From Dendrophyllia cribrosa (Eukaryota; Cnidaria; Anthozoa; Scleractinia; Dendrophylliidae), in the NCBI GenBank assembly GCA_024195265.1, contig JAJLRJ010000003.1, forward strand, positions 24,474,989 through 24,538,988: a stretch of DNA of 64,000 nucleotides, written 5' to 3'. Below are positions 9,074 through 62,654 of the stretch, one piece after another. Both the position numbers and the translations under genes were made by a program. Under the pieces are notes generated by a model. That model did no database searches, was not told the DNA's origin, and saw nothing but the letters and a program-made list of their open reading frames with translations. How positions within the stretch are numbered: the first letter of the stretch is position 1; the number at the start of each line of letters is the position of its first letter.

Positions 9074-9234
9074 TCAAAAATCTAATGGTCCGTCCCTAAG
9101 GGCTGGTTTTAAAAGCCATCTTAAGTAAAATGGAACATTCCTAAGAAAAAGGAAGTTTTGGAAAGGCTGGAGAAATCGAAAAAGATGGACATGGTGAGTG
9201 GAAACAAGTGTATGTTCAAATTTAATCAGGTTCA

Positions 9235-10720
9235 CAGTCGAACCTCTCCTTTATTCGGACACCTCTCTAATACCTGCTAATACGGACACCTGTCTAATAC
9301 CTGCTAATACGGACACCTCTCTGATACCTGCTAATACGGACACCTCTCTAATACCCGCTAATACGGACACCTCTCCAATACCTGCTAATACGGACACCTC
9401 TCTAATACCTGCTAATACGGACACCTCTCTAATACCTGCTAATACGGACACCGCTCTAATACCTACTAATACGGACACCTCTCTAATACCTGCTAATACG
9501 GACACCTCTCTAATACCTGCTAATACGGATACCTCTCTAATACCTACTAATACGGACACCTCTCTAATACCTGCTAATACGGACACCTCTCTAATACCTA
9601 CTAATACGGATACTTCTCTAATACCTGCTAATACAGATACCTCTCTAATACCTACTAATACGGATACCTCTCTAATACCTGCTAATACGGACACCTCTCT
9701 AATACCTACTAATACGGACACCTCTCTAATACCTGCTAATACGGACACCTCTCTAATACCTGCTAATACGGACACCGCTCTAATACCTACTAATACGGAC
9801 ACCTCTCTAATACCTGCTAATACGGACACCTCTCTAATACCTGCTAATACGGATACCTCTCTAATACCTACTAATACGGACACCTCTCTAATACCTGCTA
9901 ATACGGACACCTCTCTAATACCTACTAATACGGATACTTCTCTAATACCTGCTAATACAGATACCTCTCTAATACCTACTAATACGGATACCTCTCTAAT
10001 ACCTGCTAATACGGACACCTCTCTAATACCTACTAATACGGACACCTCTCTAATACCTGCTAATACGGACACCTCTCTAATACCCGCTAATACGGACACC
10101 TCTCTAATACCTGCTAATACGGACACCTCTCTAATACCTGCTAATAAGGACACCGCTCTATTACGGACAGTTTCCTATGTCCCGACAAAATTCTCACATA
10201 TTTTCTTTAAAAAAGACCTCTTTAATACGGACCCTCTCTAATACGGAGAACGGACACTAAATCTCGGCCCCAGAGAGCAAATTCATATAAACTGAACCTC
10301 TTTATTGCGGACACCCCAGTGATCAGGTGATGATAGTTTGAGTAAGTAATACAATTTCCTGTTTGTGGTTACAAACATACAGTATATCGAAAGACGTTTT
10401 CAGAATTGTACTTTATATTACTTTTTCACATGCAGCATTGCGTTGCAGTTCGTTTTAAAACAGTGATTCCTATACCTTATGTAGCTGAGAATTTTACAGT
10501 GTAGTACACTACTGATAGACAGTGTCTCAATGCTGTATATTAATCAATTTAGATGCAGTTAAAAGACGAGTGTGGACCCGTTTTTAGTTACTGAACCAAA
10601 CCTGTTAGTGAAGTCTTAAAAGTGACGTCATCGTGGTGACCTCTATGATATGGACAGTCCTCTCTTATACGGACACTTTACTCTGTCCCTTCAGTGTCCG
10701 TATTAGAGAGGTTCAACTAT
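9235..10720. mobile_element. pogo/Tigger-like TIR element carrying a minisatellite
   Basis: The left end CAGTCGAACCTCTCC, continuing into a cggacac block, and the right end, reverse complement AGTTGAACCTCTCTAATACG, resemble the CAGTNGAACCTCT-type termini of pogo/Tigger elements. Between them lies the 27-bp repeat array, then about 500 bp of unique AT-rich DNA with further TIR-like strings at 10285-10315 and 10655-10680. No transposase ORF is present. Exact ends are approximate and no TA duplication is certain. Confidence 0.5.
9256..10150. repeat. 27-bp minisatellite, about 33 units, higher-order
   Basis: The unit is approximately CGGACACCTCTCTAATACCT followed by GCTAATA. Because 27 is a multiple of three, both strands stay open for 300 or more codons; the plus frame reads NTDTSLIPA repeated. 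Variant units (ALIPT, then alternating IPA/IPT) recur at a spacing of 12 units (324 bp), so a larger block was duplicated. The unit contains the same string as the flanking terminal repeat. Confidence 0.95.
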
Positions 10721-13227: not shown

Positions 13228-14664
13228 ATGGCTGACACTGGAAAGATTCAACACAAGGATTTTTCCGGTATGTACTTGGTGCAGTGGTTAACACGCTGGA
13301 CTTCAGATCGAAGGTCATTTGTTCGAGGTCTGGTCTCGGCCATCATGTTATTTCCTTAGACAACAAACTTTACTCCGCATTGTCTCTCTCCACCCAAGTG
13401 TATAAATTAATGGATAACCGGAAACAAAATGCTGAAGGTAACCCTACGATGGGCTAGCATCCCGTCCAGGGTAGCAGCAATACTTCTAGTTGCTTTTTTA
13501 TGAACTTCATTGGACACAAGCAGCTCACAAAATAGGATGCACCAAAGGGAAAAGGTACAAATGGGATGCAAAGCCCCATGCGATGCAACTATCCAAGAAA
13601 GTTAAAATATAGTTAAATATTAGATAATAAAGGACTATAAGCTAATGACAAAATTAAGTAATGAGTCAAACTGAATCATGCATGGAAACTGGGTTAATCT
13701 CCGCCAAGTGGACCACCTGTGGATTGTGTGCGACTTTCCCTTTTACCTTATTTGCAAGTATTTTTATGGCAATGAAACCAATTAAAAACTACATCATCAT
13801 AGCAATAAATTGCAATTTTATTTGTATTCTTTAGGTTTCAGTGATATTGGAAAGCTCTTCAAGGACTCTTTACCAGAAACGTTCCCCGTGTCATTTGTCT
13901 GCGACTCAGAAGTGAAGCCAAATGCTCAAAAGAAGAGCTTGGCGAGATCCTCTCTTCCACCTGATCTGTTCTTGATGCCATCTGCATTAGGGGGTGGCAG
14001 ACTTGGCGTTTATACAACAAACACAATTGAGGGACGTGTTGTTTTTGGCCCATTCAAAGGAAAAAAGGTCTCTACTCCAGACGTGGCAAATGAAGCTGAT
14101 TATTCCAACTCGTGGGATGTAAGCATTTATATTGTATCATGTTTTGCATCTCGTCTTCCTTCCTTCCTTTCTACGTATGTACTTTCCTTTCTGCCTCTTT
14201 CCCTTCTTTTCCTTTTAATTATCGATTCATTCATGCATTCATCCATGCATGGATTCTTGCATCTATTCTTGCATCCATGCTTGCATCCTTGCTTAATTTA
14301 ATTGAAAGCAGGAATTAAGTTGTAAAAACCCTAACAAGACAAATGCAAATGCAGTGTAATGTAACGCAGTGTAATGTAACGCTTAATTTAACTTCGTAAT
14401 AATTACGAATTATTGTCGGACGAAATGCGTCAAAATGCAGCCTTTCCCGCAGTTGTCATGACGTAGTGTAACGCACGCTGGCACGCAACATCATCAAAAT
14501 GATAAAAAAACATGCGTTTGGGAGAAGTACCCAATGAGGAGTAAAATGCTGTAAAGTCAATATTGTTTAAATGCCATGTTAATGTTAGTCAACGGTTATA
14601 TAGTAAGACATCGGCAAAGATTTAGACCGTGTTAAAAGATCGGCACGAACTCTTTTTTTTGTTT

Positions 14665-14701
<37 letters not shown>

Positions 14702-17014
14702 CCTTCATTCATCCAATCGCTCATAAATTCATTCACTCATTCATTCATTCATTCATTCATTCATTCATTCATTCATTCATTCATTCATTCATTCATTCAT
14801 TCATATCATGCGTTATATGATACTAAAAAAGCTAGAACCACTCTTACTAATACCGTAGAGGTCAAAGGTATGCGGTTAAAACATCACGACTTTCAGATGT
14901 TAACTTATATGTTGTTATGCCAACTTAAAAGCCTTATGCGTTTCCATTATTGACTTGTCTGCGAGAAAATTCTAGAAGTAACGTGCTTATGCAATTAATT
15001 AATGTGTTTCATTGTGATATTCACAGGTGATTAATTTTGAATCCACACAAGGCTACTTCACTGTTGATGGTTCAAATGAATGGCGTAGTAACTGGATGAA
15101 GTTCGTTAATTGTGCTCGCAACAAAGCCGAACAGAATCTGGTATCATTCCAGCACTGTGGAGACATTTATTACCGAACATGCAAAACCATCGACAGTGGC
15201 AGTGAGCTGTTAGTTTGGTTTGATGACTTGTTCTATTCAAAGAAGCCTTCTACAAAGCAGGACAGCGCTGTTTCGAAGTCTTGCAGTGAAGGTAAAATGC
15301 ACTTGAATTGAGTAATTTTGCAGCTACCAGAGCTTGTTACAGTGGAACCCTGCACTTTAATGATTTGGCCTCTAATACGACCACCTCGTTAGTAAGGCAT
15401 TTTTGACCTAAGCAAAAGCTTTTTTAGTCATCTTATTTTTAATATCTTAAAATCCGTTAATATTACCAATTATTCCATTTAAAGATGTAAGCGACGAATC
15501 AAAGGCTCCTATGAGCCAACTCGTGAACACGAAACAACCTTTGGACCCGTCCCTCTCCTAGGCGTGTTGCTTCATCGATCCCCACCACCTTGCGTCCAGC
15601 TCCCTTAATCTTGAAGCGTTATTTTCCAGGGCACCATTTTCAGTGCGAGAACTGCAAGCTGGTGTTCCTGGGACCATCCTACCTCTACCGACACAAGAAG
15701 CACAGGTGTCCCAGCCGTTTGTCGCCAAACCAGGCAGATGCAGATAGCGCCACAACTCCTTGTTGTGCGGCTGATGACATGGCACGATCCTCAGACGGCA
15801 CTGCGAATGCTCAAGGCAACTCTGTGACACCCCAAGCGAGAGAAGAAAAACGATACCAATGCAGCAAGTGTGACAAGTGTTTTGCATCTGCAAAATTTCT
15901 CCGCAAACACTTTGGTTCCCATACAGCTGAACTTCCCTACAAGTGCTGGGTTTGTGATGAAGGATTTGTAGACTTTCAATCTAGAAGAGATCATGTTGAG
16001 GAACATAACGTTCGAAACAATTTGAAATGTCCTGAATGCCGACGAAACTTTGATGAGATAACAGCCCTTCAAAGTCATCCATGCCTTGGCGTCGATGATA
16101 ATCCAAAGATATTTAAATGTTATCAGTGTGAAAAAACTTTCAGCAAAAAGGATTATCTTGTAAATCACTTGTCTACACATTCGGAAGTGAAGCTATTCAG
16201 TTGTGACCTTTGTCACAAGCAATTCACCAAAAAACTTGCCCTTAGCAGACACAAAAAACGACTTCATAGATCAAATGGTAATCAAAAAGAAAGTCCTTGC
16301 TGCAAAGTTTGTGGTAAAGTTTTCAGTGATACGTCTTCTCTGAAAATGCATCAAAGAGTTCACACTGGGGAGAAACCATACAAGTGTAAACATTGCGGGA
16401 ACTGTTTCGCGCAAGCTTCAACACTTGCTTCACATCTACGAACTCATACTAAGGATGAACCGGATAAACCTTTCAAGTGTGCCGACTGTGGAAAATGCTT
16501 TGTTCGTGTCGCGGATTTTCACATACATGAAAGGATGCATTCAGGCGAGAAGCCGTATAAATGTAATCAGTGTGACAAGTGTTTTGCACTTAGATATAAC
16601 CTAACTAAACACAGACTTGTTCACCTATCAGAAACGCAAAAAGTCGAGGAGTCCTTGGCAGGAAGGTTAAGACTTTGGAAGTGTGCTGAATGTGATAAAA
16701 TGTTTACCAAACGTTCAAATCTTCAGAGGCACGAGCGGACGCACAAGAAACGCTACAAGTGTACGAAATGTAATAGGCGCTTTTCTCGGAAGGAAGATCT
16801 GACATTGCACAGCGAAGTTCACACTAGCGGAAAACACGAGTGTTGGGTTTGTGGGAAGGTGTTGTCGAGCTATCATAATATGAAACTGCATATATGTGTA
16901 CATACTGGTGAAAGACCACATTCATGCCCTGTGTGTGGAAAAGGATATATAAGCTTGACGGGCTACAAAGCACATCTCAGTTCCCACAAAAACAGTCACA
17001 AGGACAACTCATAA
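13228..17014 (+). CDS. PRDM-type PR/SET domain zinc-finger protein, copy 1
   Basis: Exons: 13228-13267, 13835-14118, 15027-15291, 15630-17014. Every intron has GT/AG ends, and the exons sum to 1974 nt (657 aa plus stop) with intron phases 1, 0, 1. The ATG at 13228 gives MADTGKIQHKDFS. Residues about 55-180 form a PR/SET domain, with LGVYTTNTIEG and FGPFKGKK in exon 2, then NWMKFVNCARN, EQNLVSFQHCG and ELLVWFDDLF in exon 3. This wording is closest to PRDM9/PRDM7/PRDM11. Exon 4 encodes a C2HC/C2H2-like knuckle (CENCKLVF) and 13 C2H2 fingers, residues about 272-650; finger 3 is degenerate (ends HPC). Expected role: nuclear DNA binding, possibly histone H3 methylation. The usual VWY tyrosine is F here. 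No KRAB or SSXRD region is encoded in these exons; an upstream exon cannot be excluded. The linker between fingers 10 and 11 is shortened. The paralogue is at 22585-25711 (-). Confidence 0.88.
13272..13505 (+). mobile_element. tRNA-derived SINE in intron 1 of PRDM copy 1
   Basis: A polymerase III A-box-like TGGTGCAGTGG lies at 13277-13287 and a B-box-like GTTCGAGGTC at 13321-13330. They are followed by a body with CTACGATGGGCTAGCATCCC and GTCCAGGG, a tail type shared by many animal SINEs and their partner LINEs. It begins within a few bases of the splice donor at 13268. Intron 1 of the paralogue is only 75 bp and lacks it, so insertion followed the gene duplication. Confidence 0.65.
14668..14804 (+). 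repeat. (GATT)n and (CATT)n microsatellites in intron 2
   Basis: A GATT run at about 14668-14700 and a CATT run at about 14727-14804 give a spurious 'FIHS' repeat ORF. Intron 2 of the paralogue also carries GGAT/AATG repeats at 25225-25270, in the matching orientation for the inverted gene, so a shared origin is plausible. Confidence 0.9.
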
Positions 17015-17973
17015 ACGATTTGTTATGGAACTTTGCTAGTCAGTCTTATCTTAATTCCATTACTTTGGATTTGCATGAGTACATCTAGACTGATAATTTC
17101 ATTAAGTTACTTTTATATTGCTTCAGGCGGTTTTTGTTAAGTAGAAGTTCAAGTGGAAGACTAAGCAAAGCTTCATTTTTCATTGGTTTCCAAGCCGAAT
17201 TGGTTAAAATAGCAACAAAGTGCATTGTCCTTAACTCTAAACAATGCTGATTTTCTGAAAATCTAGGACGACACTTTAAAAGCCACTTTAGCCAACAGGT
17301 GCTGTAAGGCTATTGGGTTATAACACGGCTAGAAGGTTACTGTAGTCGGCTGTTTTAAAACCCAAAGATACAAGCATGTCCTCTACCTGATGGTCAGTTC
17401 CTTGTTTGCTTTAGCTAGGGCGCGGTGCGATAAGGCCTTTGAGTAAAGCCGACGCCTTAACCAAGCGTGGGTCTTGTTCGAAAAAAAAAATTCCCCTCTT
17501 TTACGTAGATCACGATTTAATTTTTACGAAATAATTTTAATCATTTCCACATTTGTTTTCGTTACCATAAAAAGATAAACGCTAGAACTTAACAAAGAAC
17601 TTATTAATTAGAATTTCTACGATTGTCTTACAAAAACAAATTTAGGTAATAACTAAAAATAAGGTCAATGCAGTCGACTCTAAGGTGGCTGCAGGCTTTG
17701 TGAATCTGTGATTTGGTGGGCTTATTTTCCCAATGTCTCGTGGAAGGGAATTCCTAAGCAAAAAAATGCCTTTTACAGATCGGTAATTAATTAATTAATT
17801 AATTAATCAATCAATTAATTTGTTTTTAGATGCAAATAATTCAGTAAAGAATGACAATAAATTGTATATTCGTGCAAAGCCGGTTTCTTTCTTTAATTGT
17901 TGTGCGACTTGATTCAGTTTGTTCTTCTTTTCGATGAAGAGCCTTTACTATGCATGTTACTGCTTGGAATGTC
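17015..17973. other. 3' flank of PRDM copy 1, no gene seen
   Basis: Probable 3' UTR followed by intergenic DNA. An AATAAA string occurs near 17860 but is far from the stop. A TTAA microsatellite lies near 17785-17815. I see no similarity to the 3' flank of the paralogue. Confidence 0.4.
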
Positions 17974-18084
17974 AATAGGCCTATTTCAATATACACTGTA
18001 TATTAAAATTCTTACTTGGCTCAGAGGCTTACGCTAATAATAAGAGTCAAGTTAGAATTTTAATATATCGAAATTGGCCTATTT
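17974..18084. mobile_element. 111-bp TIR MITE
   Basis: Ends AATAGGCCTATTTCAATATA and (reverse complement) AATAGGCCAATTTCGATATA are inverted repeats around a short non-coding core. Confidence 0.6.
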
Positions 18085-19213
18085 TATCTATTGAGATTGC
18101 TTCTTCAATAAATCAATCATTCTTTTTGATCAATCATTTCTATCGTTTGGTGGTTTGAATTTCGCACGGAATCGACCTCAGAGTTTTGTTAACAACGTAA
18201 ATAGTCTTTCTTTGACCGGCTCTCAAAGCGTTTTTAAAATTCAACTTGAAAGAGCATTAATCGGCATACCAAAGTTGTAGTGTTAATGTTAATTATTTCC
18301 GAAGAACTCGGTGCAATTTTCTAATGATATAAAAACGCTTTTAATTGAAGCTATAGCTGTGAAAACTGTATATCAATCGGAGTAATTAGCAGTATTTTTT
18401 GTGATTGCGAGGCTTGCCAATCAAGAGCAGAAGAGAGGCAATCCTTGTGGCGTGGATCTGGCCCTTTTATTTTTTAAGGGAGGCAGGCCAACTGAAAACT
18501 CCTAGGAACAAGACATTCAAGTTTAGCGTGTGTTGTGTTTATTCAGAACATCGTGTTCTAACATTTTTCACTACAGCGTCAACAACGCGCTTACCGAGCA
18601 GAGAGAGCTCATAGAGGCTTGGAGCCGAGCACGATGGCACGAAGATGTCCTAGGGGAATCTTCCCAATCAGCTCGATGGGTGACGTCACATTCTATTACG
18701 CGCCAAGGACTACAGTCAATCATATTAAATAGCGAGGGTCCGTAATAGTGGGGTGTGAGAAAATATTTATTTGAAAACATACTCACAGTAAGGAGAATAC
18801 ACGTATTTACATTGTCATTGACTGCTGGACCCGTTCCAGAACCTTATGGACGTGTAAAGGGCATTAAAACTGTTTTATTTACAAAACAGAACGGAACTTA
18901 CATACGCTTTTGTACAGTATATAGCAGTTCAGTACATTGTACCCAAGAATCAAATGTTACTGGAATTGTATCTAACCTATATGCATCGTTATCATTTCCT
19001 GCTGTACGTAATTTACATTTGAAAATCTGTGAGATTTATTTTCAAGCATTCATCATATGGTCGTCACTTCTCAGTGACTTCTCCTAAACAAAAAATCTAT
19101 CCAACCAGCTCTGGTTAATTCTCCTTTAAACGGCAATTACGCCGACTTTGTCGACGTCAAGGATGATAAATTCGTGCGCAATATTAAACCGCCCTCTTTA
19201 AATTAGAAACGCA
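18085..19213. other. intergenic, nothing recognised
   Basis: Several short ORFs (18405-19087) lack any recognisable domain and lie on both strands in overlapping frames. No supported gene. Confidence 0.35.
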
Positions 19214-19413
19214 GAAAAGTTAACCGAGGATTTCATTTCTCTATTTAAAAACGTTTTCAGATGGTCTTTTGTAGGTAGTAGTGAAGACAAGTTACAATCG
19301 AAACTTAAGGGAAGTAAACGTTGGAAAATTTTTCAATTGTTGAGTTGTTTAACTGGAGCCGAAATTGCGGCTAATCCTGGGTTAGCTTAATCGTGCTTTG
19401 AACAACCCTGCCC
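19214..19413. mobile_element. truncated copy of the 2304-2543 MITE
   Basis: Shares 'gttaaccgaggatttcattt', 'gtagtgaagacaagtta' and the terminal 'gtgctttgaacaaccc' with the element nested in TIR copy A. The left terminal part is missing. Confidence 0.65.
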
Positions 19414-19936
19414 AGAAAGACAAAGGTGTTGACAAAAAGCGGAAAAATAATACTTAAAATGTGTTTTGATGTTCAAAAAGTGAAACCAAAAATGTGACGT
19501 CGGTAATACTCGGCGAGATTCCGTAATAGCTGGAGTTTTTTTTTCAGCAAAACGTCTATAACTTTTGCCGGGGATTCACCGTTTGTCCGTAATAGCAAGG
19601 TGTTGACTTTCCAATTTTTGCTGATTGAATTGGTTTTTGAAGCAATATACAATCCAAAAGTAGGCACTTAGAGTAAAAATGCCTATAGTTGATGAATATG
19701 CAGATTACGAAAATTTTACTAATATGTTTGAAATTTGTTGAAACACGTTTTTTTTACTCGTGTTTCAAATGATTGAGTTTTATAACTCATCCAGCTGACC
19801 AGAATGGGGCGTTCTGGTTGGCTAATAACAGCGTTTGCGAACGATAGTGACGTTGCTCGCGAACAGAATCTGTTATCAAACTAGTACTATTAAGACTTTT
19901 CCTAGCGAAAATGCAAAACCAGAGAACGTTTCTATA

Positions 19937-20103
19937 CAGTGGACCTCCATTAAGGGTACCCCTTGGGGACCAGGAGAAGTGTCCCCTTAATAGAGGCGTC
20001 ACTTATTTAATAGAGGTGAACATTACAAAGATTGTATGAGCGTTTTGCCGGCCAGAGAAGTGTCCCCCAAATGGAGGTGTTCCCTTAATGGAGATGTCCA
20101 CTG
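19937..20103. mobile_element. 167-bp pogo/Tigger-like MITE
   Basis: Ends CAGTGGACCTCCATTAAGGG and (reverse complement) CAGTGGACATCTCCATTAAG are flanked by TA dinucleotides at 19935-19936 and 20104-20105. The TA duplication and CAGTGGACCTC terminus fit the Tc1/mariner-pogo group. Non-coding. Confidence 0.75.
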
Positions 20104-20369
20104 TATTTAAAAAATTAATGACAACGAGCTATTGGTTTTGCGATGACCTGTTTTACAAATGACATGATAATGAAATGATTTCGCTGTCATGGGGATAAAA
20201 GCTTCAAGCCATATGCCACAAGATGAAAGGTGATATGGGTTCCGACCCTACAAATAAATTATCACAATCAGCATTGCATCGCCCGTATAGAAAAAAAAAG
20301 CAAGGAGATAAACATTTCATTGGTTTATTGGCACTGACAAACACGAAACACAGTACATGGACTAACATC

Positions 20370-20455
20370 CTTACATACATACAGTTACATACAGTTTATT
20401 AACGTGACTAAAAGGCTATTTTACAGGTAAGCTCACAAATTAAATAAATAAATAT
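20370..20455 (-). repeat. dispersed LINE-tail-like repeat
   Basis: 'cagtttattaacgtga' and 'aaggtaagctcacaaatta'-type strings (here 'caggtaagctcacaaatta') recur at 60895-60967. The adjacent 'catacatacagt' suggests a reversed microsatellite 3' tail. The downstream 300 bp are AT-rich without a recognised feature. Confidence 0.5.
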
Positions 20456-20828
20456 AATCAAAACAATTAAATGTTAAATTGTAGAAATACGCCTATAATA
20501 GAAATAGCAAGTATTACAAGCCGGAGAGGTCAAGTTTACTAATTTTAGTTTTTAAAGACTTTATTTATGCACGATATAAGTTAAGGCAAACATCTTGCTT
20601 GTGGGGTCGTGTTTCTAGCTACAAATTAAAAACGTTTCTATATACATTAAAATTAATAATAATTATATACACGATTGTTTACATTAGTAAAACTCCATAA
20701 TTTTGCTGCACTGTAACGCCAGGAGCGTAGTCCGTATGTGGTACCATTTACTTTCGGTAAAGTAAGAATATCAGTACCTTTCAGATTATATCTCGACTTT
20801 CTTAAGGTAGTTAAATGTAAAAGACTTA

Positions 20829-22169
20829 CAGGTTACGCCACAAAATGTAATAATTGACGCAAAATGTAATAGTAACCCACAATGTAATAACTTTTGACGC
20901 AAAATGTAATAGTAACCCAAAATGTAATAACTTTTGACGCAAAATGTAATAGTAACCCAAAATGTAATAACTTTTGACGCAAAATGTAATAAACTCGGTA
21001 ACGCAAAATGTAATAACTTTTGACGCAAAATGTAATGAACTAAAGTAACGCAAAATGTAATAAATTTGACGCAAAATGTAATAACTTCAGTTTGACAAAC
21101 GCCACCTATCAATCAAGTTGTACACGTCATCGATCACTTGGCAACCATATTCAAGAGAGTAAGAAGCCCCTTCCAACAAAGTATAAGCTGGATATCGAGC
21201 GTTTGCCGAGCGATGAAGATAAACTTGGAACCTTCAAAGTAACGAACAGAAAGCTATATCAAAATGGCTCCAAAAGGATTAAAAACGGCAATAAAAATAA
21301 CACCAAACACAATAAAAGTTCACGTGGTCTCCTTCCATGCATATACTAACGTCTGAAATCGAAATTTCCACTTTCTTCAAAAGTATTGTGGACAAGGTTC
21401 CTTTGCCCAGAGTTTACATCCTAGAGATGACAGGCCGTGTTCTCCGTATCAGCGTCAGAAAGATAATCTACTTGAAAGGAAAAGGTTCTGGCGCAGTCTT
21501 GGAACTTAAAAACATCATCAACAGTTCAAATATATAACTGGTCAAATGCTTGGCTGATCTCAGTGGGCAACAGCCTTGGCTGGTTTTTCAAAAAGTCAAT
21601 TTACTGGAAGAAATAAGTCATGCGATCCTCGTTCCTTTTTTTTTCACCACAAAATGTTGTGTTGGTGTAAAGTTCTGAAACTTTCAATTGTTTAATTAAC
21701 AAAACACAGGATACTGTTTTGAAACTGTCAATGTACATTATTCACGAGTATGAGCTTCCCACGTAAACTTTAAAAAGGAAAAGGCAGATTTAGCTATTAA
21801 ATGCAAAAAAACAACAGTCTGGATAGCATATGCATTACATACGGACTGCATTTGCTCATATAGGAAGGTTTTTGTCGTTCAATAATTTAATAAAATAAAT
21901 GAAAATTTCCAAATTTGGTAGCTGGTCACATACCGAAAAATCCCGAAAATAAGTTATTACATTTTGCGTCAAATTTATTACATTTTGCGTTACTTTAGTT
22001 TATTACATTTTCCGTCAAAAGTTATTACATTTTGCGTTACCGAGTTTATTACATTTTGCGTCAAAAGTTATTATATTTTGCGTTACTATTACATTTTGCG
22101 TCAAAAGTTATTACATTTTGGGTTACTATTACATTTTGCGTCAATTATTACATTTTGTGGCGTAACAGG
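20829..22169. mobile_element. 1.34-kb element with iterated inverted arms
   Basis: The left arm (20829-21090) is an array of short units such as GACGCAAAATGTAATAAC and AACCCAAAATGTAATAAC. The right arm (21955-22169) is its reverse complement, ending CATTTTGTGGCGTAAC against GTTACGCCACAAAATG at the left. The core of about 860 bp holds only short ORFs (for example 21092-21349, Lys/Asn-rich) without a recognised domain. No clear target duplication. It lies between the two PRDM genes. Confidence 0.75.
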
Positions 22170-22584
22170 GACTGCGTTTAAAGCTACATTACTAGTACAA
22201 TTTACTCAAAAACGGTACTTAACTTTCGGTTTCGTCGCGTAAGCGTTCATATGATAAAGTTTACTGAAATCGTTCCAGATGTGTGTATTGAAAACACTTA
22301 TGAGTCTTTTAGACTTTTGCTATGATCTCAATTCAAGTGTTGTTTTGGACTGAATGTTAACCTCGATCAGTCTCATTAGCTTTTGACACTGGAAATCCAA
22401 CTGAAGATCTTTCCAGGTGGCAAATTTCATTTCAGTTGTATGCGCTTAACAAGCCATAGTACGACTAAACCATTTTTCCTGGATAAAGCCCCTGTCCCAG
22501 GCCTCCAAGTGTTTGACTGAGGTGTTCTAGTGACACCAAATACATAATACGTGACAAAAAGGAACAATAAAACTGTCTCTTAAT
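22170..22584. other. 3' flank of PRDM copy 2
   Basis: Probable 3' UTR and flanking DNA of the minus-strand gene. No repeat or ORF recognised. Confidence 0.35.
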
Positions 22585-25500
22585 TCAGTTCGAAGGTGTG
22601 TGGGAACGCAGATGTTTTCTAAAGCCCCTCGAGCTTATATATCCTTTTTCACACACAGGACACGAATGCGGTTTTTCACCAGTATGAACGCAAATGTGCA
22701 GTTTCATCTTGTCATAGCTGAAAAACACTTTTCCACAAACCCAACATTCGTGTTTTTCAGCAGTGTGAACTTCGCGGTGCAACTTCAGATCTTCTTTCCG
22801 AGAATAACGCTTATTACAGTCCGCGCACTTGTGGGGTTTCTCTCCTGTGTGAGTCCGCTCATGCTTTCGAAGATTTGAATTTCTAGTAAATGTTTTATCG
22901 CAGTAACCACACTTCCAAAGCTTCGCGATCCTTTGCCCCTCAGGAAGGTGAATCTGACTGTGTTTAGCGAGAGACGAATTCCATCGAAAACGCTTTTCAC
23001 AATGATCACATTTGTACGGTTTCTCGCCAGTGTGAATTCTTTGATGTATGCGAAAGTCTGCTACACGTGCAAAGCATGTTCCACAGTCGTTGCATTTGAA
23101 TGGTTTGTTCTTATGGGGTTCGTGTGTACGTAAATGCCCAGCTAGTGTTGAAGATTGAGCGAAACATTTCTCACAGTGTCTACACTTGTACGGTCTCTCT
23201 CCAGTGTGAACTCTTTGATGGACCTTCAGAGTAGACGCGTCGCAAAACAATTTACCACAAATTTTGCAGCGAGAGCTCTGATCATCATTCGATCTATGAA
23301 GTCGTTTGTGTCTACTGAGAGCGGCTCTTTTAGTGTACTGCTTGTCACAAAGGTCGCAACTAAACTGCCTCGTTTCGGAATGTGTTGACATGTGGCTTTC
23401 AAGATAATCTTTCCTCTTAAAGCTCTTTTCGCACTGATTGCATTTTAACTTTTTGGGTTTCACGAAAAAGCCTCGGCACTGGTGTTTTTGAAGAGCTGAT
23501 TTGTCATTATAGCTCCGCTTGCAATCGGAACATTTGAATTTCTTTTTATGTTCTTCGGCATGTTTGATTCTAGAAAACAAGTCCTTAAAGCCTTCACCAC
23601 ATACCCAGCACTTGTACGGAAAGTCAGCCGTATGGTCACGAAAATGATATAGCAGCAGTTTTGATGTTTTAAAACGCTTATCACATCGACTGCATTGGTA
23701 TTCAACCGTTTGAGACGTATCAGAGTTCATTTGGGTGTTGTTACTGCTTGCTAAGGTTCGTTCCGTGTTATCAGCCGAAGAAGGAACAACAGGCTCCACA
23801 AGTGCATTTTCTATTGATGGAGGCTCAGAATCATTTTGCACAGGACACCTGTGTTGTTTGTGTCGGTAGAGGTATGATGGTCCCAGGAACACCAGCTTAC
23901 AGTTCGTACAAGCAAAACGGTCCTCTAAAAAGGAAAAAAAACGTGTTTTTCGGTTAGGTTAAATTCTTGAACTATTTGTCTATTTTGATAAAATACGCCG
24001 TTTCCCAAGCTTTTAAGCCTGACCTTTGATAAAATGGTGGTTAATTTTCTTTGGCGTTGCCGAGACATGCCACTACTGTAGCAATACTGCTTTTCTTTAG
24101 CAAAAAGGAATGATGTAGTAATCAGTATCAATCAAAGTTGATCCTCCAGCGTTTAATCTTATTTCTTAAGGTGTTTAGGTTAGTTAACTATCGTTTCTTT
24201 TGTGACTAAAACCCGCGCAGTTGTTTCCAGAAAATACAAAAAGATGTTCTGTTCACGATGATTATGCCAACCTGTTCACATCGCGACGTTTAAACTATCT
24301 GTAGCATTATACAGATAGAAATCAGTACTGCTAATCAGTACCCCCAGAGCCTTGTCAACGGTTGTCCCATGCAATGCAATACACCACCAAGTGGAGTCAA
24401 GGCGCTGTGGGTAAAAAGATATGCATGCACATGATAGCGATAATATTCAGATCTGCCATTTTGGCATTATTTGCGTCCATCATTTTCATAGGCCTAGAAA
24501 AGTGTCAGTTATGACGAAATAAGACTTCCGTCCAGCAATATAGTTCGTACGTAAATGGCTAGGATCATTGGAAAACGACTGTCTGAAGACCTGGTATACC
24601 CGTTCACTTCTTGAGGGAACAAAATTAAACTTACCAAAACTGTGGCTTACCTTCACTGCAAGTGTTGTAAACAGTCTGCCCCACAGATTTGTTTTTTGAA
24701 TAGAACAAGTCATCAAACCAAACTAACAGCTCACTGCCACTGTCGATGGGTTTGCATGTTCGGTAATAAATGTCTCCACAGTGCTGGAATGATACCAGAT
24801 TCTGTTCATTCTCGTTACGAGCACAATTAACGAACCTCATCCAGTTACTAGTCCATTCATCTGAACCATCAACAGTGAATTGGTCTTGTGTTGATTCACT
24901 CTTAATCACCTATGAACATCACATTGAAACGATCAACATTGTTAACACAATGCGTTTACGGAAGGTTTTTGCATCATTTTTGCATTAGTTATGTTGCATG
25001 CGCTGCAGTACGTAAAGCATCTTAAGGGAGACTAAATACACTTTAGACTGCGAGCAGTAAGGGACTGCTCGCAGTCTATTTACACTTGAAAGCCATTTCG
25101 TTCCGTTTTTAAATATATTGCTTTAAAATTACTACTTCAAGCTTGCATGTTATGTTCGTTTGCATGTTTAAATCTTCGAAAACTAACCGGCTTACTTAAT
25201 GACCTTGATTAAAAAATGTGTACTTGGATGGATGGATGCATGGATGGATGAATGAATGAATGAATGAATGGAACCAAGGAAGGGAGGAAGAACCTGAAGA
25301 ACGAATACTTACATCCCATGAGCTTGAATAATCAGCTTCATTTGCCACGTCTGGAGTGGTGATCTTCTTTCCTTTAAATGGACCAAATATTGCGCGTCCT
25401 TCAATTGCGTTGGTTGTATAAACTCCAAGTCTGCCACCACCTAATGCAGATGGCATTAGGAACAGACTATTTGGAAGAGAGGATCTCGCCAAACTCTTTT

Positions 25501-25711
25501 GTTGCGCTTTTGGCTTCACTTCTGAGTCTCGGATAAATGTCATTGGAAAAGCGTCTGGTAAAGAGTCCTTGAAGAGTTTTCCAAGATCACTACAACCTAA
25601 AGATCACGTTACAAAATAATTTGTAAGGATCCTATGTTTTATTCTGTGTTAGTAAAATCTAAGCTGACTACCTGAAATATCCTTGTATTCGGGTCTTCCA
25701 ATGTCAGCCAT
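22585..25711 (-). CDS. PRDM-type PR/SET domain zinc-finger protein, copy 2
   Basis: Exons in transcript order: 25711-25672, 25596-25313, 24909-24651, 23924-22585. All introns are GT/AG and the exons sum to 1923 nt (640 aa plus stop), with the same phases 1, 0, 1 as copy 1. Exons 1 and 2 have identical lengths in the two copies (40 and 284 nt); exon 3 is 6 nt shorter. The protein starts MADIGRPEYKDIS. The PR/SET domain contains LGVYTTNAIEG, FGPFKGKK, NWMRFVNCARN, EQNLVSFQHCG and ELLVWFDDLF, with the same F in place of the usual Y. A CTNCKLVF knuckle and 13 C2H2 fingers follow. By eye the PR part is over 80% identical to copy 1. Helix contact residues are unchanged in fingers 8 and 11 but altered in 9, 12 and 13. 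Expected to be a nuclear DNA-binding protein; methyltransferase activity is uncertain. Confidence 0.88.
25045..25077. repeat. perfect 14-bp-stem hairpin in intron 2 of PRDM copy 2
   Basis: AGACTGCGAGCAGT and ACTGCTCGCAGTCT are separated by five bases. The sequence is GC-richer than its surroundings. It may be a very short MITE remnant or an RNA hairpin. Confidence 0.7.
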
Positions 25712-28507: not shown

Positions 28508-29650
28508 TTAACTATCTACATTATCACCATCAAGTTCCAGTGCAGGGGAATTTTCACACGACTCTCCTTTGCAAACGCCGCAGGCAGGCGAGCAGTCTAG
28601 GCCATGCTTCCTACATGTACACCTCAGTGTGTTACATTCTGATTTGCAATTACAGGGCTGGTGCGAACGGGAAGAAGTTTTTTGCCATCTGTAATTGACC
28701 ATCCCCAATTCTCTGACTCTCTGATCTCTCTGCTGATTATCTCCTTTCCACTGATGCACTTGAAAAAAACACTCGAAAGCTGTGAAAAGTTGCCGCTGCG
28801 GATGTCGGTGGTAGTTGTTCGGGCTGTAGGAACGAAGACCCTGTAGCGACTTTCTTGCAGAAGCTGGTATAACGCAGTACATCAAGGCTTCCATCTGATC
28901 CACCGTACAGACATAGCAGAGCCTTTTCTCCAGCCTGGATGATCTCTTGTTTCGTAGCGTCAAGACGATCGAAAATCTTACCTTGATCACGAAACTTTGC
29001 GTCATTTGATATCTTCTTAAATGCCACTCCTTTGCCGATTCCAAAAAGTCGTGAAGTAGTATCGCATCCGAGTACTGCGTGCACGAACATAAATATTATT
29101 CTGTACATATTTGGCCCGCTAGGGCTGACTTCGTCTTCTTGATATTCCACACTTTTCTTTGTCTTTGAAGTCTGCTTCGGCTCGGGTATAAAGAAGTGGT
29201 CGTGGCTGTCCATCACAGCATGATAACAAAGTAAGACTAAGAGAACTGTGTCATGCCCGATGAGGACCGTTGTAGCGTTTCTAGCTGACTGTATAGCCGT
29301 CTGAACAATTTCAAGATCGGCGTCACCTGGTGCATGAACTACTGTGCAACTTTTCACTTCTAATTTGCCACCGAGAAGGTTAATAAACCTTTGTTTGTTC
29401 ACGCTTTGTTTGCGAGAAATTCAGCTTTCTTGGATTTAATCACCATGTCAGAGTCGAAGTTTACAGTTGGGCCTATCGTACCCGTCCATCTTGGATGTGT
29501 ACAGTCCTTCGTTGAAGGTCCATCCTCATATCCGTCAAATACTACTGTGGCCTTGCCATACTTTCGAGTAACGTATTGAACATATAAAGAACAATTAGCC
29601 TCAAATGCAAATGCCCGCGGCCAGGGTACACGGTGAAGGAGTGCTCCCAC
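28508..29650 (-). pseudogene. XPG/PIN-like plus CXC transposon ORF, frameshifted
   Basis: Three overlapping minus-strand frames join into one broken protein: 29650-29399 (VVFDGYEDGPSTKD), 29402-28737 (HAPGDADLEIVQTA, VLIGHDTVLLVLLCYHA, VLGCDTTSRLFGIGKG, LCLYGGSDGSLDVLRY) and then the frame ending at 28508 (CNCKSECNTLRCTCRKHG, CSPACGVCKGESC). The GDAD and D-T-(D)-xLLVLL blocks resemble FEN1/XPG-I-type acidic sites; one expected Asp reads V here. The Cys-rich tail is CXC-like. Frame changes occur near 29400 and near an A7 run at about 28765. I associate this architecture with repeated invertebrate transposon ORFs, possibly Academ-like; that name is from memory and unsure. Confidence 0.65.
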
Positions 29651-33191: not shown

Positions 33192-33425
33192 TAAGCGAGT
33201 TCGGAGTTTCAGCGGAGTGTCAGCGGTCAATCACAAAATTGCGCGCGACTGGGAACAAGTCGGGATAAAAACTGTAAGTTTAAAAATAAAACTGTAAGTT
33301 AAAGCTGTAAGTTTCTGTGAAAGTTTACCATGATCATAAATTATTTGTCTAGCTTTTCACAGAAGTTTATCATCTTCTAATGAAATATTTTATCTATTTT
33401 AATTTTGACAGGGAAATCTGCAGTA

Positions 33426-34475
33426 ATGAACCCAGTCTCTAGGCAGTTGTTCCAGATAACAAAGCCATCAACTACTGAACGCGATACGTTAACTGATGTA
33501 GAAATGTTAATGCATGCATTTTACTCAAGCACACCAAATGCGTGTGCATTTCAATATGTAGATCTAGATGCAAAACAACAGTACCCACCTGAGGCAGATT
33601 TTAATGTTAAGAAATACATTGATGTCAAAACAACCAATACAATTCCTCCTACTCTATCAGAAATTGCATCCACTGCAAACACTGTGGATGAACTAATGGC
33701 AAGGTTAAGTTGCTTTACTACTGAGGAAGTCAAACTGCTTGAGGAGCATACGCGCGGGCAGAATGAGAATTCTGACTGGAAGTCTCAGCGTGTAGGTAGA
33801 ATAACTGCATCAATTATCCATAGGGTTATGACTAAAGTGAACTCCCTAAACAAGGACTCCGGTACAGCTTCTGCTATCCCATTAGTAAAATTACTGACCG
33901 GTCAAACACCACAACTTTCAAGTGAATGTATACCATCTCTTCAGTATGGACAACAAATGGAGGGGGAGGCTCGTGTAAAGTATCAAAATGAAATGAAGCT
34001 GGAGGGTCACAAGGATATTAAAGTGCAATTATGTGGCCTTTTTGTTCTCCAAGACAAACCCTATATTGGTGCATCTCCTGATGGTTTGGTAAGTTGTAGC
34101 GAAGGTCTCCTGGAAATTAAATGTCCATTTAGCATAGCCAACCAGAGCCCACTCGAGGCAAAGCTGGCTTATTTAGAACAGGAAAGTAATGGTGGTGGTC
34201 TTCGTCTTCGGCAAAACCATCCGTACTACAGTCAAGTCCAGGCACAAATGGGTGTTTTGGGAAGGAGCTGGTGTGACTTTTTTATTTACACACGTCATGG
34301 ATTTTACAGAGAAAGGATCAATTTTGATCATGAATTTTGGAAAGAACTGGTTAGGGCAGCACATCTTTTCTTTGTCAAATATGTTGCACCTACACTTCTA
34401 CAATGCTCAGCTCAAACAGTACCTAGTTGTTTATTGTATAATGATGAACTTCAGTATGTAGAAATTGATGCTTAG
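33426..34475 (+). CDS. YqaJ-type exonuclease of ISL2EU element
   Basis: About 349 aa from the ATG at 33426. The reading frame is open a little further upstream and a 'tttgacag' acceptor-like site lies just before 33411, so an upstream exon is possible. Motifs of the YqaJ/lambda-exonuclease-like PD-(D/E)xK fold: RVGRITAS (residues about 120-127), QYGQQMEGEA, GASPDGLV with the metal-binding D, LLEIKCPF (E-x-K), and YYSQVQAQMGVLG. This family cleaves or resects double-stranded DNA; in ISL2EU its exact role in transposition is not established. No frameshift or internal stop is seen. The partner transposase is convergent at 35272-37026. Confidence 0.85.
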   Translation: MNPVSRQLFQITKPSTTERDTLTDVEMLMHAFYSSTPNACAFQYVDLDAKQQYPPEADFNVKKYIDVKTTNTIPPTLSEIASTANTVDELMARLSCFTTEEVKLLEEHTRGQNENSDWKSQRVGRITASIIHRVMTKVNSLNKDSGTASAIPLVKLLTGQTPQLSSECIPSLQYGQQMEGEARVKYQNEMKLEGHKDIKVQLCGLFVLQDKPYIGASPDGLVSCSEGLLEIKCPFSIANQSPLEAKLAYLEQESNGGGLRLRQNHPYYSQVQAQMGVLGRSWCDFFIYTRHGFYRERINFDHEFWKELVRAAHLFFVKYVAPTLLQCSAQTVPSCLLYNDELQYVEIDA

Positions 34476-35271: not shown

Positions 35272-37026
35272 TTATTGTACAAGTGGGGGTAGCAAATTAG
35301 AAATACTAGCACAAACAACAAGAATGTCGTCAACAAGAGGTACAAGTGTGATTGGTAGAGTATTCTTTAAAATTGCAAAAACTTTCATTCGGCCAATAGC
35401 CCTCTCCACGTGTATCCGTGCATTGGCAATTTTTTTGGTTGCTATTACTTTCTCTCTGGGCATTTGTTCAAGCCCTGAACTTGGTGGTGGGATTTCCAGG
35501 GTGGCTCCTTGCATCATGAGATCCTCTTTTATTGTGAAACCCCTGTCTGCCATAATTAAGTCTGTCGGCTCCAGGAGTTCAAGGAACCCTGATTCTCGAG
35601 TGATGTGTTGGTCAGATGCTCTGCCACCCCATGCTTTAGAAAGAAAACTAATCATACCATTTGGTGCAATGCCCACTAGAAATTTAACTGTGTTATGTTT
35701 CTTGTAATCAGACCAAGTGAGAGCCTGAATCTCAAGATTTCGCGGTCGATCTATAAATACTTCGCTGCAATCAATTGTACATCGTAGGTTTGGGTAACGT
35801 TTGAGGGATTTGGGAAGAGTTTCTCTAATTGCCTCTTTTGAAGGCCAAAATATGAGAGGTTTTAATTCTTGAGCCAGAAACTTGACCCAGGTGTTGATGA
35901 CCTGTGAAGCTCCCCCATTACTGATTCCAAATAAGTCTGCAAGCATTTCATTTGTGATGGCCATTCGCAATTTTAATAAGACCAAAGTCAATTCTTCTTT
36001 CACGGATAGCTTTCTCTTTGGCCCTGATTTCTTTGGCGACGCTTTGAAGTTTCTCCGAACTTTACTTGAAATAACCTTTTTTGAGCCACTCCAGTAGCAC
36101 AGTTTCTTTGATTTTGGGGTGACATACTTAACCAGGTCATTGAAAGTTCTTTTATTTGGCAAGCCTGTGTATGTCCTGATCTTTGCATCCGTTTTCAAAA
36201 ACTTGTCTGTGATATTCATACTCTTTGCTGATAATTTCTTCTGAAGAACAACATTTTGGGTTTTTAACTGCTCCAATTCTGACCACATTTTTGTGATTAT
36301 TTTGTTTTTTTGAATGCAACCTAGGCAGTCACACACATAAGTGTAATCATGATCGTGTTTGATGCTATCACCTTTTAGAACAGTTTGTTCAACTTCAATT
36401 TTATCCATACCGTCACCTTTGAGAACATTTTGGTCAACTTCAATTTTATCCGCACTGTCACCTTTGAGAACAGTTTGGTCAACTTTAATTTTATCCATAT
36501 CGTCACCTTTGAGAACAGTTTGTTCAACTTCAATTTTATCCGCACTGTCACCTTTGAGAACAGTTTGGTCAACTTTAATTTTATCCATACCATCACCTTT
36601 GAGAACAGTTTGGTCAACTTCAATTTTAGCCTTTTTGTCTACAGGGCTATATTGGGCACTCCTCATTTTAGGGCCTGCTCTTTTAGCCTGCTGTTGTTTT
36701 GGCTTATACCCAATATCAACAGAGGGATATGGATGATCTACAGTAGGTTGTCCATCCACGAAATGTTTAGAACAAACCCTGTCGTCGTCGTCATTTGGCT
36801 GCCAGTTTTTTCCTGTTTTAGGATCTTTTCGATTGATGGCTTTAATCCACTCCTTCCTTTTCCCAGGGTCCCTTTTCAATGTTGGAAAGGGATACAGCTT
36901 AAACGGTTCAGGACACATACACGCACTGTCTCTTCGATGACAATCATGTACACAACAGAAACCATTTCTCCACTTTTGCAACTGATAAGTACCGCTACTG
37001 CAGCTAACGACTGCACAAATCCTCAT
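35272..37026 (-). CDS. THAP + DDE transposase of ISL2EU element
   Basis: 584 aa, uninterrupted, ATG at 37026. The N-terminus (1-110) is THAP-like, with an early Cys pair, FPTLKRDPGKRKEWI and RVCSKHF, the C2CH zinc DNA-binding module. Residues about 132-220 are a six-fold 15-aa repeat (DQTVLKGDxxDKIKV). A CDCLGC motif and coiled-coil-like segment follow. Residues about 350-400 are an HTH_Tnp_4-like helix-turn-helix (VKEELTLVLLKLRMAITNEM, FGISNGGASQVI). Residues about 420-575 are a DDE_Tnp_4 nuclease: TIDCSEVFIDRP (first D), LIMADRGFTI (second D) and a final E in ARIHVERAIGRMK. Expected to bind the TIRs and catalyse cut-and-paste transposition. It looks potentially active. Confidence 0.88.
   Translation of the reverse strand: MRICAVVSCSSGTYQLQKWRNGFCCVHDCHRRDSACMCPEPFKLYPFPTLKRDPGKRKEWIKAINRKDPKTGKNWQPNDDDDRVCSKHFVDGQPTVDHPYPSVDIGYKPKQQQAKRAGPKMRSAQYSPVDKKAKIEVDQTVLKGDGMDKIKVDQTVLKGDSADKIEVEQTVLKGDDMDKIKVDQTVLKGDSADKIEVDQNVLKGDGMDKIEVEQTVLKGDSIKHDHDYTYVCDCLGCIQKNKIITKMWSELEQLKTQNVVLQKKLSAKSMNITDKFLKTDAKIRTYTGLPNKRTFNDLVKYVTPKSKKLCYWSGSKKVISSKVRRNFKASPKKSGPKRKLSVKEELTLVLLKLRMAITNEMLADLFGISNGGASQVINTWVKFLAQELKPLIFWPSKEAIRETLPKSLKRYPNLRCTIDCSEVFIDRPRNLEIQALTWSDYKKHNTVKFLVGIAPNGMISFLSKAWGGRASDQHITRESGFLELLEPTDLIMADRGFTIKEDLMMQGATLEIPPPSSGLEQMPREKVIATKKIANARIHVERAIGRMKVFAILKNTLPITLVPLVDDILVVCASISNLLPPLVQ
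36365..36630 (-). repeat. 45-bp coding repeat in the transposase, about six units
   Basis: Each unit encodes 15 aa (VDQTVLKGD + MDKIK or SADKIE). Two alternating unit types suggest 90-bp duplication steps. The frame is kept throughout. Confidence 0.9.
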
Positions 37027-37373
37027 CTCAGCTCGTCAATTAAGTGTCAACTTGACAAATAAAATGAAGCTACTACTCATTTATAAGCTTACTTCCAATT
37101 CTGGAAAGTTTAGAATAGCGACTGTTCACAATAGTATTTCTTCAGTATTGTTTTGTAATGTACTCCAACAAGTTAGATTAAAAACGTTAATTCAAACGAC
37201 GTGATAGATCACAACCGCGTTGTAGCTTTTTCAATCCCCGGTTTCCACACTTTGACCAAGAGAAAAATAGGTCGAACTGTCGAACAAGGACCTCGAATAA
37301 ACCATTTTTATCCCGACTCGTTCCCAGTCGCGCGCAATTTTGTGATTGACCGCTGAAACTCCGAACTCACTTA

Positions 37374-61533: not shown

Positions 61534-62472
61534 TCATGATCTGTGCTTTTTAGGAGACCTTGATCGTGAATGTGATCTGGATTTGGTTTTCTTCTTTTTG
61601 TGAGACTTTGAAGAGGAATGTCTTTCAGACCGTCCCTTTGACTTCGAGGTTGACCTAGATCTTGATTTGCGTGATCTCTTTGGTGACTTAGAATGCGATC
61701 TTTTTCTTCGTGAAGTTGATTTGTGATTTGATTCTGAACGTGACCCTGAGCTTCGATGATGTGTACGAGATGGCGACACAGAACGTGCATGCCTCTTTCT
61801 ACTTCTTTCTGGTGAGTTTGACCTGTCACGTGACGGTGATCGACGTCTCTTTAAATTTGAGAGAGGTGATGAGGAATGTCTTTTCCTATTTCTGGATGGT
61901 GACATAGATCTTGAGCGCGACTGAGAACGATCCCTATTAGAACGGGGGGTTTCTTCAACAAGTTTTATTTTCTTTCCAAGGAACTCTCGCCTATCAAGAG
62001 TTTCCAATGCTTTTAACATGTCTTCCTTGCTTGCAAATTCAACAAGTCCTTCACCAGGTTTCCTTCTGTGCGTATCTGCAAAAGTTACATCGCCCGCTGC
62101 ACTCATAAACTCTTTGAGTTCTGACCATTTTGCTCTGGCGGGAAGATTTTCAACCCGAATTCTGTGATTTGTTCGCACAGGAGGAGGCTTAGGTTGGCGA
62201 ACTCTTGCAGTATATCCACCAGCTACAGTGTATCCACCAACGCCATTTCTAATATCTTTCGCTCGTTCTACCAGAATACTCTGCCCCATAAAGTCCTTGC
62301 CGTTGAGTTCTTGCACGGCCTTGTCAGCATCCCGGTAATCTTTATACACAGCGTACGCATAGCCTTCCTTGAAATCAATATCGCGGATTTTTCCGATGGA
62401 TTTCAGCAGGGTTTCCAAATCTTTTTCTGCAGCGTTGGAAGGCAGTCTTCCGCAGTAGATCCTCCCGCTCAT
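61534..62472 (-). CDS. two-RRM SR splicing factor (SRSF4/5/6-like), intronless
   Basis: 312 aa in one uninterrupted exon, ATG at 62472. RRM1 spans residues 3-72 (RNP2 IYCGRL; RNP1-like EGYAYAVY). A Gly/Tyr/Pro linker follows. RRM2 spans about 103-174 and has KWSELKEFM where SRSF pseudo-RRMs carry SWQDLKD. From about 175 the tail is rich in RS/SR dipeptides (RDRSQSRSRSMSPSR and onward) up to SPKKHRS. This is the layout of SRSF4/5/6, nuclear factors that bind exonic enhancers and recruit the spliceosome; the RS tail is the SRPK/CLK phosphorylation target. The absence of introns is unusual for this family and may reflect retroposition or intron loss. Divergently arranged with 62655-63002 (+). 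Confidence 0.9.
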   Translation of the reverse strand: MSGRIYCGRLPSNAAEKDLETLLKSIGKIRDIDFKEGYAYAVYKDYRDADKAVQELNGKDFMGQSILVERAKDIRNGVGGYTVAGGYTARVRQPKPPPVRTNHRIRVENLPARAKWSELKEFMSAAGDVTFADTHRRKPGEGLVEFASKEDMLKALETLDRREFLGKKIKLVEETPRSNRDRSQSRSRSMSPSRNRKRHSSSPLSNLKRRRSPSRDRSNSPERSRKRHARSVSPSRTHHRSSGSRSESNHKSTSRRKRSHSKSPKRSRKSRSRSTSKSKGRSERHSSSKSHKKKKTKSRSHSRSRSPKKHRS

Positions 62473-62654
62473 AGTTGTTAAAAAAGCGCGCCTTCAAGAA
62501 AATTTTAGGAACTTTTCACAAAACCACGCTCAAAAATCCGCCATCACACCAGTAGGACTGCACTGCGCATGATTTGCAAAGAAGAGCGCTGGATAGAGAG
62601 AGGTTACCAAGCTCACGTGTGCTTTGTCAAAGGAGAGCAGAGCAGTGTGGAGCC
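62473..62654. promoter_or_regulatory. putative bidirectional promoter
   Basis: 182 bp between the start codons of the minus-strand SR factor and a plus-strand ORF. It is GC-richer than nearby DNA and contains 'atccgccatca', a YY1-like core on the minus strand (gatggcgga). No TATA box is evident. Inferred from the head-to-head arrangement only. Confidence 0.45.

Follow-up and report, generated by a model that had tools for sequence, protein, structure and literature searches.

The window analysed here, a 64,000-nucleotide stretch of the genome of the coral Dendrophyllia cribrosa (C16:24474989-24538988; searched genome 627 Mb, 22 contigs), holds two intact PRDM genes, A (657 amino acids, aa) and B (640 aa), each of four exons, which lie tail to tail with 5,570 base pairs (bp) between their stops. 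All six introns are GT-AG and follow the phases 1, 0, 1 in both genes, and both frames stay open through to the stop; exon coordinates, splice sites and reading frames were checked by script. Both proteins match Pfam PRDM2_PR (PF21549; expectation value E 1.8e-34 in A and 3.7e-35 in B) together with SET and C2H2 finger models (PF00096; 1.1e-49 in A and 1.5e-55 in B), so the gene pair is not a product of chance, and the combination of a PR domain with a 13-finger C2H2 array places each in the PRDM family. A 665-aa relative, P0001, encoded on a 2,471-nucleotide (nt) contig (source 'lgn') and sharing 86.6% identity with A across 656 aligned positions, spans all three intron positions uninterrupted; because of this continuity it is probably the spliced transcript of an A orthologue-like gene in a related species, which supports the four-exon model, though it may instead be a retrocopy. 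In each gene an AG precedes the ATG, by 34 nt in A and 19 nt in B, and the frame is open across it; P0001 also starts 8 residues earlier, so exon 1 of both genes may extend further 5' than called. Coordinates, splice sites, frames, Pfam matches and P0001 thus agree with the initial annotation, which had described two intact, facing four-exon PRDM-type genes with these exon lengths and phases. The parts of the locus are:

13228..13267, + strand: gene A exon 1 as called (40 nt; 13 codons plus 1 nt); the P0001 N-terminus aligns to it; 5' extension possible
13835..14118, + strand: gene A exon 2 (284 nt), with a degenerate knuckle region and the N-terminal half of the PR domain
15027..15291, + strand: gene A exon 3 (265 nt), second half of the PR domain, with Phe at PRDM9 position 357
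15630..17014, + strand: gene A exon 4 (1385 nt), carrying the C2H2 fingers (13 by pattern) and the stop
17015..22584, no strand: spacer between convergent A and B, holding a fold-back repeat at 20832-22166
22585..23924, - strand: gene B exon 4 (1340 nt), carrying the C2H2 fingers (13 by pattern) and the stop
24651..24909, - strand: gene B exon 3 (259 nt), second half of the PR domain, with Phe at PRDM9 position 357
25313..25596, - strand: gene B exon 2 (284 nt), with a degenerate knuckle region and the N-terminal half of the PR domain
25672..25711, - strand: gene B exon 1 as called (40 nt); 5' extension possible

Among solved proteins the PR domain of A and B is closest to mouse PRDM9 (E 1.6e-27), ahead of PRDM14 (4.6e-22) and PRDM11 (1.2e-19), so that an earlier description of its wording as nearest to PRDM9, PRDM7 and PRDM11 was right about PRDM9, but PRDM11 is the weaker match and the pair lies outside the coral PRDM9 clade. 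An AlphaFold model of P0001 built from 19 sequences (mean predicted local distance difference test score, pLDDT, 73.6; predicted template modelling score 0.33) has blocks over residues 41-180 at pLDDT 68-92, with residues 1-39, the former knuckle, below 50. Its five best matches in the PDB are finger proteins, and among PR structures PRDM9 ranks first (4c1q_B; E 4.7e-16, template modelling score 0.77 by target). In PRDM9 numbering, checked against the 4IJD row, both genes carry Phe, Tyr and Phe at positions 276, 341 and 357 and so lack the full catalytic set of Tyr276, Tyr341 and Tyr357. Across 48 PR rows, three tyrosines occur in 36 and the Phe-Tyr-Phe set in A, B and P0001 only; Phe at 276 alone occurs in PRDM12 and PRDM14 (PDB rows), C17, P0002 and C20_11.09, and Phe at 357 alone in P0005 and P0006. 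As summarised in one review, Y357 is absolutely required in vitro, and Y357F mice lack PRDM9-dependent hotspot H3K4me3 and H3K36me3 (PMC6116924). The PR domain of A and B is, judging from these residues, probably inactive as a methyltransferase. The zinc knuckle that precedes the PR domain in PRDM9 is likewise degraded: A has no Cys-His set, B and P0001 keep the first Cys alone, and a knuckle hidden Markov model (HMM) matched exon 2 of neither A nor B.

The absence of KRAB and SSXRD noted in the initial annotation stands after HMM and tblastn searches of the window and the 48.9 kb upstream. A KRAB-like HMM gave a best E of 0.55 over the window, and tblastn with sponge, lamprey and crinoid N-termini returned, below E 0.5, only a low-complexity match there; an SSXRD-like HMM reached E 3 in the window and 0.2 and 0.3 in DNA tens of kilobases upstream (the positive controls of both HMMs match by construction). 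Pfam SSXRD gave a single sub-threshold match over the genome, at C16:27010577, away from both genes. We therefore rejected the proposal that A and B possess concealed upstream KRAB or SSXRD exons, none having been found in the window or the preceding 48.9 kb.

The finger arrays are also unlike the tandem minisatellite of PRDM9. The fingers of A, B and P0001 are colinear and non-repeating, with mean finger-to-finger DNA identities of 0.45 (A) and 0.46 (B), near those of the relatives on C17 (0.48) and C1 (0.50). Contact-position diversity is 0.84 in A and 0.83 in B, against 0.71 at other positions, and in A, B, C17 and C1 contact and non-contact positions are both diverse. Contact residues agree at 44/52 positions between A and P0001 and at 32/52 between A and B; the remaining finger residues agree at 205/221 and 156/220, respectively. 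The fingers of A and B are unlike one another, and the two arrays had diverged well before A split from its relative P0001.

A search with the PR region of A returned 41 matches at E <= 1 in the genome, and at E < 0.05 the loci comprise A, B and 24 others, eleven of them at C16:3.03-3.18 Mb. We built PR trees of 32 and 48 rows, which contain long branches and leave out 8 of the 24 further loci (one with identical letters, five with one of two exons, two not extracted, one of these with stops). In both trees A, B and P0001 form a single clade (100/100) whose stem is long (0.82 and 0.87); its sister is the C17:24.89 gene together with that gene's relatives (97/91 and 99/95), followed by C1:41.38 (95/94 and 97/92). 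C20:6.23, C20:5.94 and C6:17.53 group with PRDM9 of Oculina, Desmophyllum, Porites and Acropora (100/99, 48-row tree), and PRDM14 groups with C3_33.079 and C20_29.84. The approximately unbiased (AU) test rejected three forced groupings of A and B, at p = 6e-5 for coral PRDM9, 4e-4 for anthozoan PRDM9 and 1e-3 for vertebrate PRDM9/11 (PRDM11 is a long branch), so A and B are not PRDM9 orthologues. Deeper origins are less settled: a grouping of A, B, C17 and C1 with anthozoan PRDM9 was not rejected (p = 0.27) and appears in the 32-row tree (81/86), and the 48-row tree does not resolve its base. The initial annotation had held that a position far from PRDM9 and PRDM11, among many equally distant paralogues, would speak against its proposal; the outcome is divided, as 24 further PR loci exist, but the C17 and C1 genes may still belong with anthozoan PRDM9. 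The PRDM9-type knuckle is kept in C17 and its relatives and also in C4_18.30, which lies outside PRDM9, so the knuckle is possibly older (the row for C1_41.38 is N-terminally short, and the knuckle column is uninformative for rows that start after it).

Two groups of other PR loci deserve mention here. In the cluster of eleven PR-exon matches at C16:3.03-3.18 Mb, one match has two in-frame stops, and the six members included in the trees cluster with C4_18.30 in a single clade (100/99). Two PRDM14-like loci at C3:33.079 and C3:33.113 Mb, about 34 kb apart, have identical extracted PR exons and represent either a recent duplication or an assembly duplicate.

A and B are a duplicated pair, as the initial annotation proposed, but the duplication is not the recent one it envisaged. 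Their identity (66.4%) is below that of A and P0001, their overall synonymous divergence (dS) is 0.67, and their introns are unalignable except at exon edges and a simple repeat; on these three grounds we rejected a recent duplication. The shared exon structure was set aside as a sign of recency, since the PR-domain intron that follows W[DE] falls at the same codon in 13 of the 13 PRDM genes examined in this genome (26 PR loci counted) and is therefore uninformative on this point. The ratio of nonsynonymous to synonymous rates (omega) between A and B is 0.31 overall, 0.31 in the PR part and 0.23 in the fingers. A and B are old and under overall purifying selection.

Divergence between the two genes is uneven. 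In the PR part dS is 0.34 and the exons are 85-86% identical in DNA; in the fingers dS is 0.96. Codons for the same residue are identical at 118/137 positions in the PR part vs 154/230 in the fingers (Fisher p = 4e-5), and fourfold sites at 49/61 vs 40/73 (p = 0.002). One segment stands out:

15153..15242, + strand: codons 151-180 of A, 98% DNA identity to B 24694-24783, a probable gene-conversion tract (coordinates computed from exon 3)

The simplest reading of these sequence patterns is that gene conversion has acted on the PR exons of the two inverted neighbours. Constraint on synonymous sites, which would keep PR divergence low with no exchange at all, is a possible but doubtful alternative. 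It would fit the failure of the A and B introns to align. Against it, the PR part and the fingers evolve alike between A and P0001 (143/164 and 343/385 identical residues), a pattern not seen in the comparison of A with B (136/164, and 234/369 from the second finger onward); in addition, an AU test on the PR domain did not reject a grouping of A with B that excludes P0001 (p = 0.25).

Together these results lead us to view A and B, with a probability of roughly 0.7 for this explanation as a whole, as intact regulators of the PRDM family, their PR domain probably inactive and their PR exons apparently homogenised by gene conversion, that belong to a coral PRDM subfamily distinct from the coral PRDM9 orthologues and have their nearest paralogue in the genome on C17. 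Most likely the two genes encode sequence-specific regulators. Each protein would use its roughly 13 fingers to bind fixed DNA sites and control transcription, and its PR domain would act as a platform for protein binding instead of an active H3K4/H3K36 methyltransferase. The inverted neighbours would exchange PR-exon sequence by gene conversion while their finger exons diverge, and A and B may in this way share partners and read different DNA.

Several observations weigh against this interpretation. KRAB-like and SSXRD-like exons are short, and distant or far-off ones could escape detection; the groups used in the AU tests were named after the first tree had been seen. Omega is higher at finger contact codons (0.41) than at other finger codons (0.19), although both are below 1, and it reaches 1.06 over the 36 codons of the linker between the first and second fingers. 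Tyrosine substitutions can be compensated, as reported in PMC5519329; Y341 is retained in A and B, and Phe at 276 also occurs in PRDM12 and PRDM14, so that only Phe at 357 is telling. Conversion should homogenise introns too, yet those of A and B do not align, which disfavours a recent long conversion tract.

A different account, in which a PRDM9-like gene was duplicated recently and in inverted orientation, with a bearing on recombination control or on fast evolution of DNA binding, appears to us highly improbable. PRDM9 is indeed the best solved match of the pair by both sequence and fold, and A and B adjoin, share a structure and have similar PR exons; but the closeness of A to P0001 rather than to B, the dS value and the unalignable introns have largely refuted its recency, and the AU rejections, the static colinear fingers, the phenylalanines at 276 and 357 and the missing KRAB-like and SSXRD-like exons all run counter to a PRDM9 identity, a description that fits other genes of this genome. 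That A or B, or both, could be decaying or unexpressed is also improbable, if somewhat less so. This idea draws on a third relative nearby:

C16:24442439-24443722, located 31 kb ahead of the window: finger exon with an open 561-aa frame, the third relative of A and B (57%), with in-frame stops in a first-finger remnant upstream

The 48.9 kb examined held no adjoining PR exon at E 0.01. Against decay of A and B themselves stand their full frames, canonical splice sites and omega of 0.31, as well as P0001, which looks like the transcript of an A orthologue.

The genes that fit the description of PRDM9 lie elsewhere in the genome:

C20:6.219-6.237 Mb: PRDM9-type gene
C20:5.930-5.944 Mb: PRDM9-type gene
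C6:17.522-17.536 Mb: PRDM9-type gene

All three have KRAB-like, SSXRD-like, knuckle and PR exons and the three tyrosines. By strict pattern they carry 16 (C20:6.23), 14 (C20:5.94) and 18 (C6:17.53) fingers, spaced at 84 bp in 12/15, 12/13 and 15/17 steps, with mean finger DNA identities of 0.95, 0.93 and 0.87 and diversity concentrated at contact positions (0.49 vs 0.04, 0.51 vs 0.09 and 0.66 vs 0.19 at other positions, in the same order). The finger frame is unbroken only in C20:5.94 (590 aa); the breaks in the other two may represent decay or assembly error. Among the best 120 of 181 matches, the nearest named relatives of one PRDM9-type gene are from the stony corals Oculina (73%), Porites (63%), Acropora (63% over 95% of the query) and Desmophyllum (74% over 54%), and then from Nematostella (47%). 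Pfam KRAB and SSXRD gave no match on the joined coral C20_5.94 N-terminus or the Oculina protein, nor on sponge or crinoid proteins among the matches listed (crinoid: best 25 of 43), and the lamprey N-terminus gave sub-threshold values (KRAB 0.011, SSXRD 0.008); the labels 'KRAB-like' and 'SSXRD-like' therefore rest on short sponge, lamprey and crinoid similarities (best E 0.003) and on P0025 of Oculina, whose 73% match covers the N-terminal query. On sequence grounds, it is these C20 and C6 genes, and not A and B, that are the recombination candidates of the genome. The bearing on recombination control once suggested for A and B is not supported, given where the PRDM9-type arrays lie, the AU rejections and the replacement of two of three catalytic tyrosines by Phe.

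The pair, a lineage-limited PRDM duplication, matters chiefly because it helps to separate coral PRDM genes that are not candidates for a role in recombination from the three that are. Full-length PRDM9 homologues in cnidarians and sponges have already been published, and a 2026 review calls it unknown whether PRDM9 has retained its function from the animal ancestor onward (PMC13186367); concerted evolution and positive selection are reported for the fingers of Nematostella Prdm9 (PMC2779102). Our literature search on PRDM9 and PRDM in cnidaria, coral, Acropora and Nematostella found, among the matches listed, no title on this pair or on coral PRDM9 arrays, which is not proof of absence. Whether one coral genome holds both kinds of gene, PRDM9-type genes on C20 and C6 and the KRAB-less, inactive-looking, static A and B, is a proposition that we rate at even odds. 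If true, it would reproduce beyond vertebrates the rule stated by Baker et al. (2017), by which domain completeness, catalytic residues and array turnover are coupled, and it would predict that PRDM9 directs recombination in corals, A and B serving as a built-in negative control. A coral that carries complete, hypervariable PRDM9-type genes alongside relatives that are static and catalytically altered would make the question of retained function testable.

The rest of the window holds features of other kinds. The fold-back element at 20832-22166, between A and B, has arms of about 190 nt that are 98% complementary and consist of repeats of about 40-46 bp, with 863 nt between its longest arms. 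Two frames, one with THAP and DDE_Tnp_4 transposase domains (35272-37035, - strand) and one for a YqaJ-type exonuclease (33384-34475, + strand), are probably mobile-element genes. A minisatellite at 9198-10241 is open on both strands (347 aa on +, with a SLIPANTDT-type repeat; 307 aa on -), a single-frame RRM protein with an arginine-serine-rich tail of the SR splicing-factor type lies at 61534-62493 (- strand), and two overlapping open frames of 195 and 227 aa at 28508-29420 (- strand) have no Pfam match.

Among known systems, A and B resemble complete PRDM9 in PR/SET sequence and fold, in a PR domain split by introns and in a single finger exon after it; they differ in having no detectable KRAB-like or SSXRD-like exon, no knuckle and no finger minisatellite, in the phenylalanines at 276 and 357 and in the AU rejections. 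With PRDM11 and PRDM14 they have the PR domain in common, as weaker matches (1.2e-19 and 4.6e-22). The C17:24.89 gene, P0002, P0005 and P0006, their sister group in the PR tree (99/95), likewise start just before the PR domain and have Phe at 276 (C17, P0002) or 357 (P0005, P0006), but unlike A and B this group keeps the zinc knuckle, and P0002, P0005 and P0006 (907-972 aa) have their first finger separated by a long stretch from an array of seven. Vertebrate PRDM9 genes without KRAB often lose the tyrosines and array turnover, as described by Baker et al. (2017; PMC5519329), and PMC11703093 restates this rule on partial PRDM9 for the beta copies of fish. A and B belong to an independent coral lineage in which the knuckle is lost too, and their descent from a complete PRDM9 by domain loss is a possibility only; they parallel fish PRDM9-beta (PMC5519329) in consisting of PR domain and fingers, in lacking the N-terminal domains, in their substituted tyrosines and static array, and in evolving under purifying selection.

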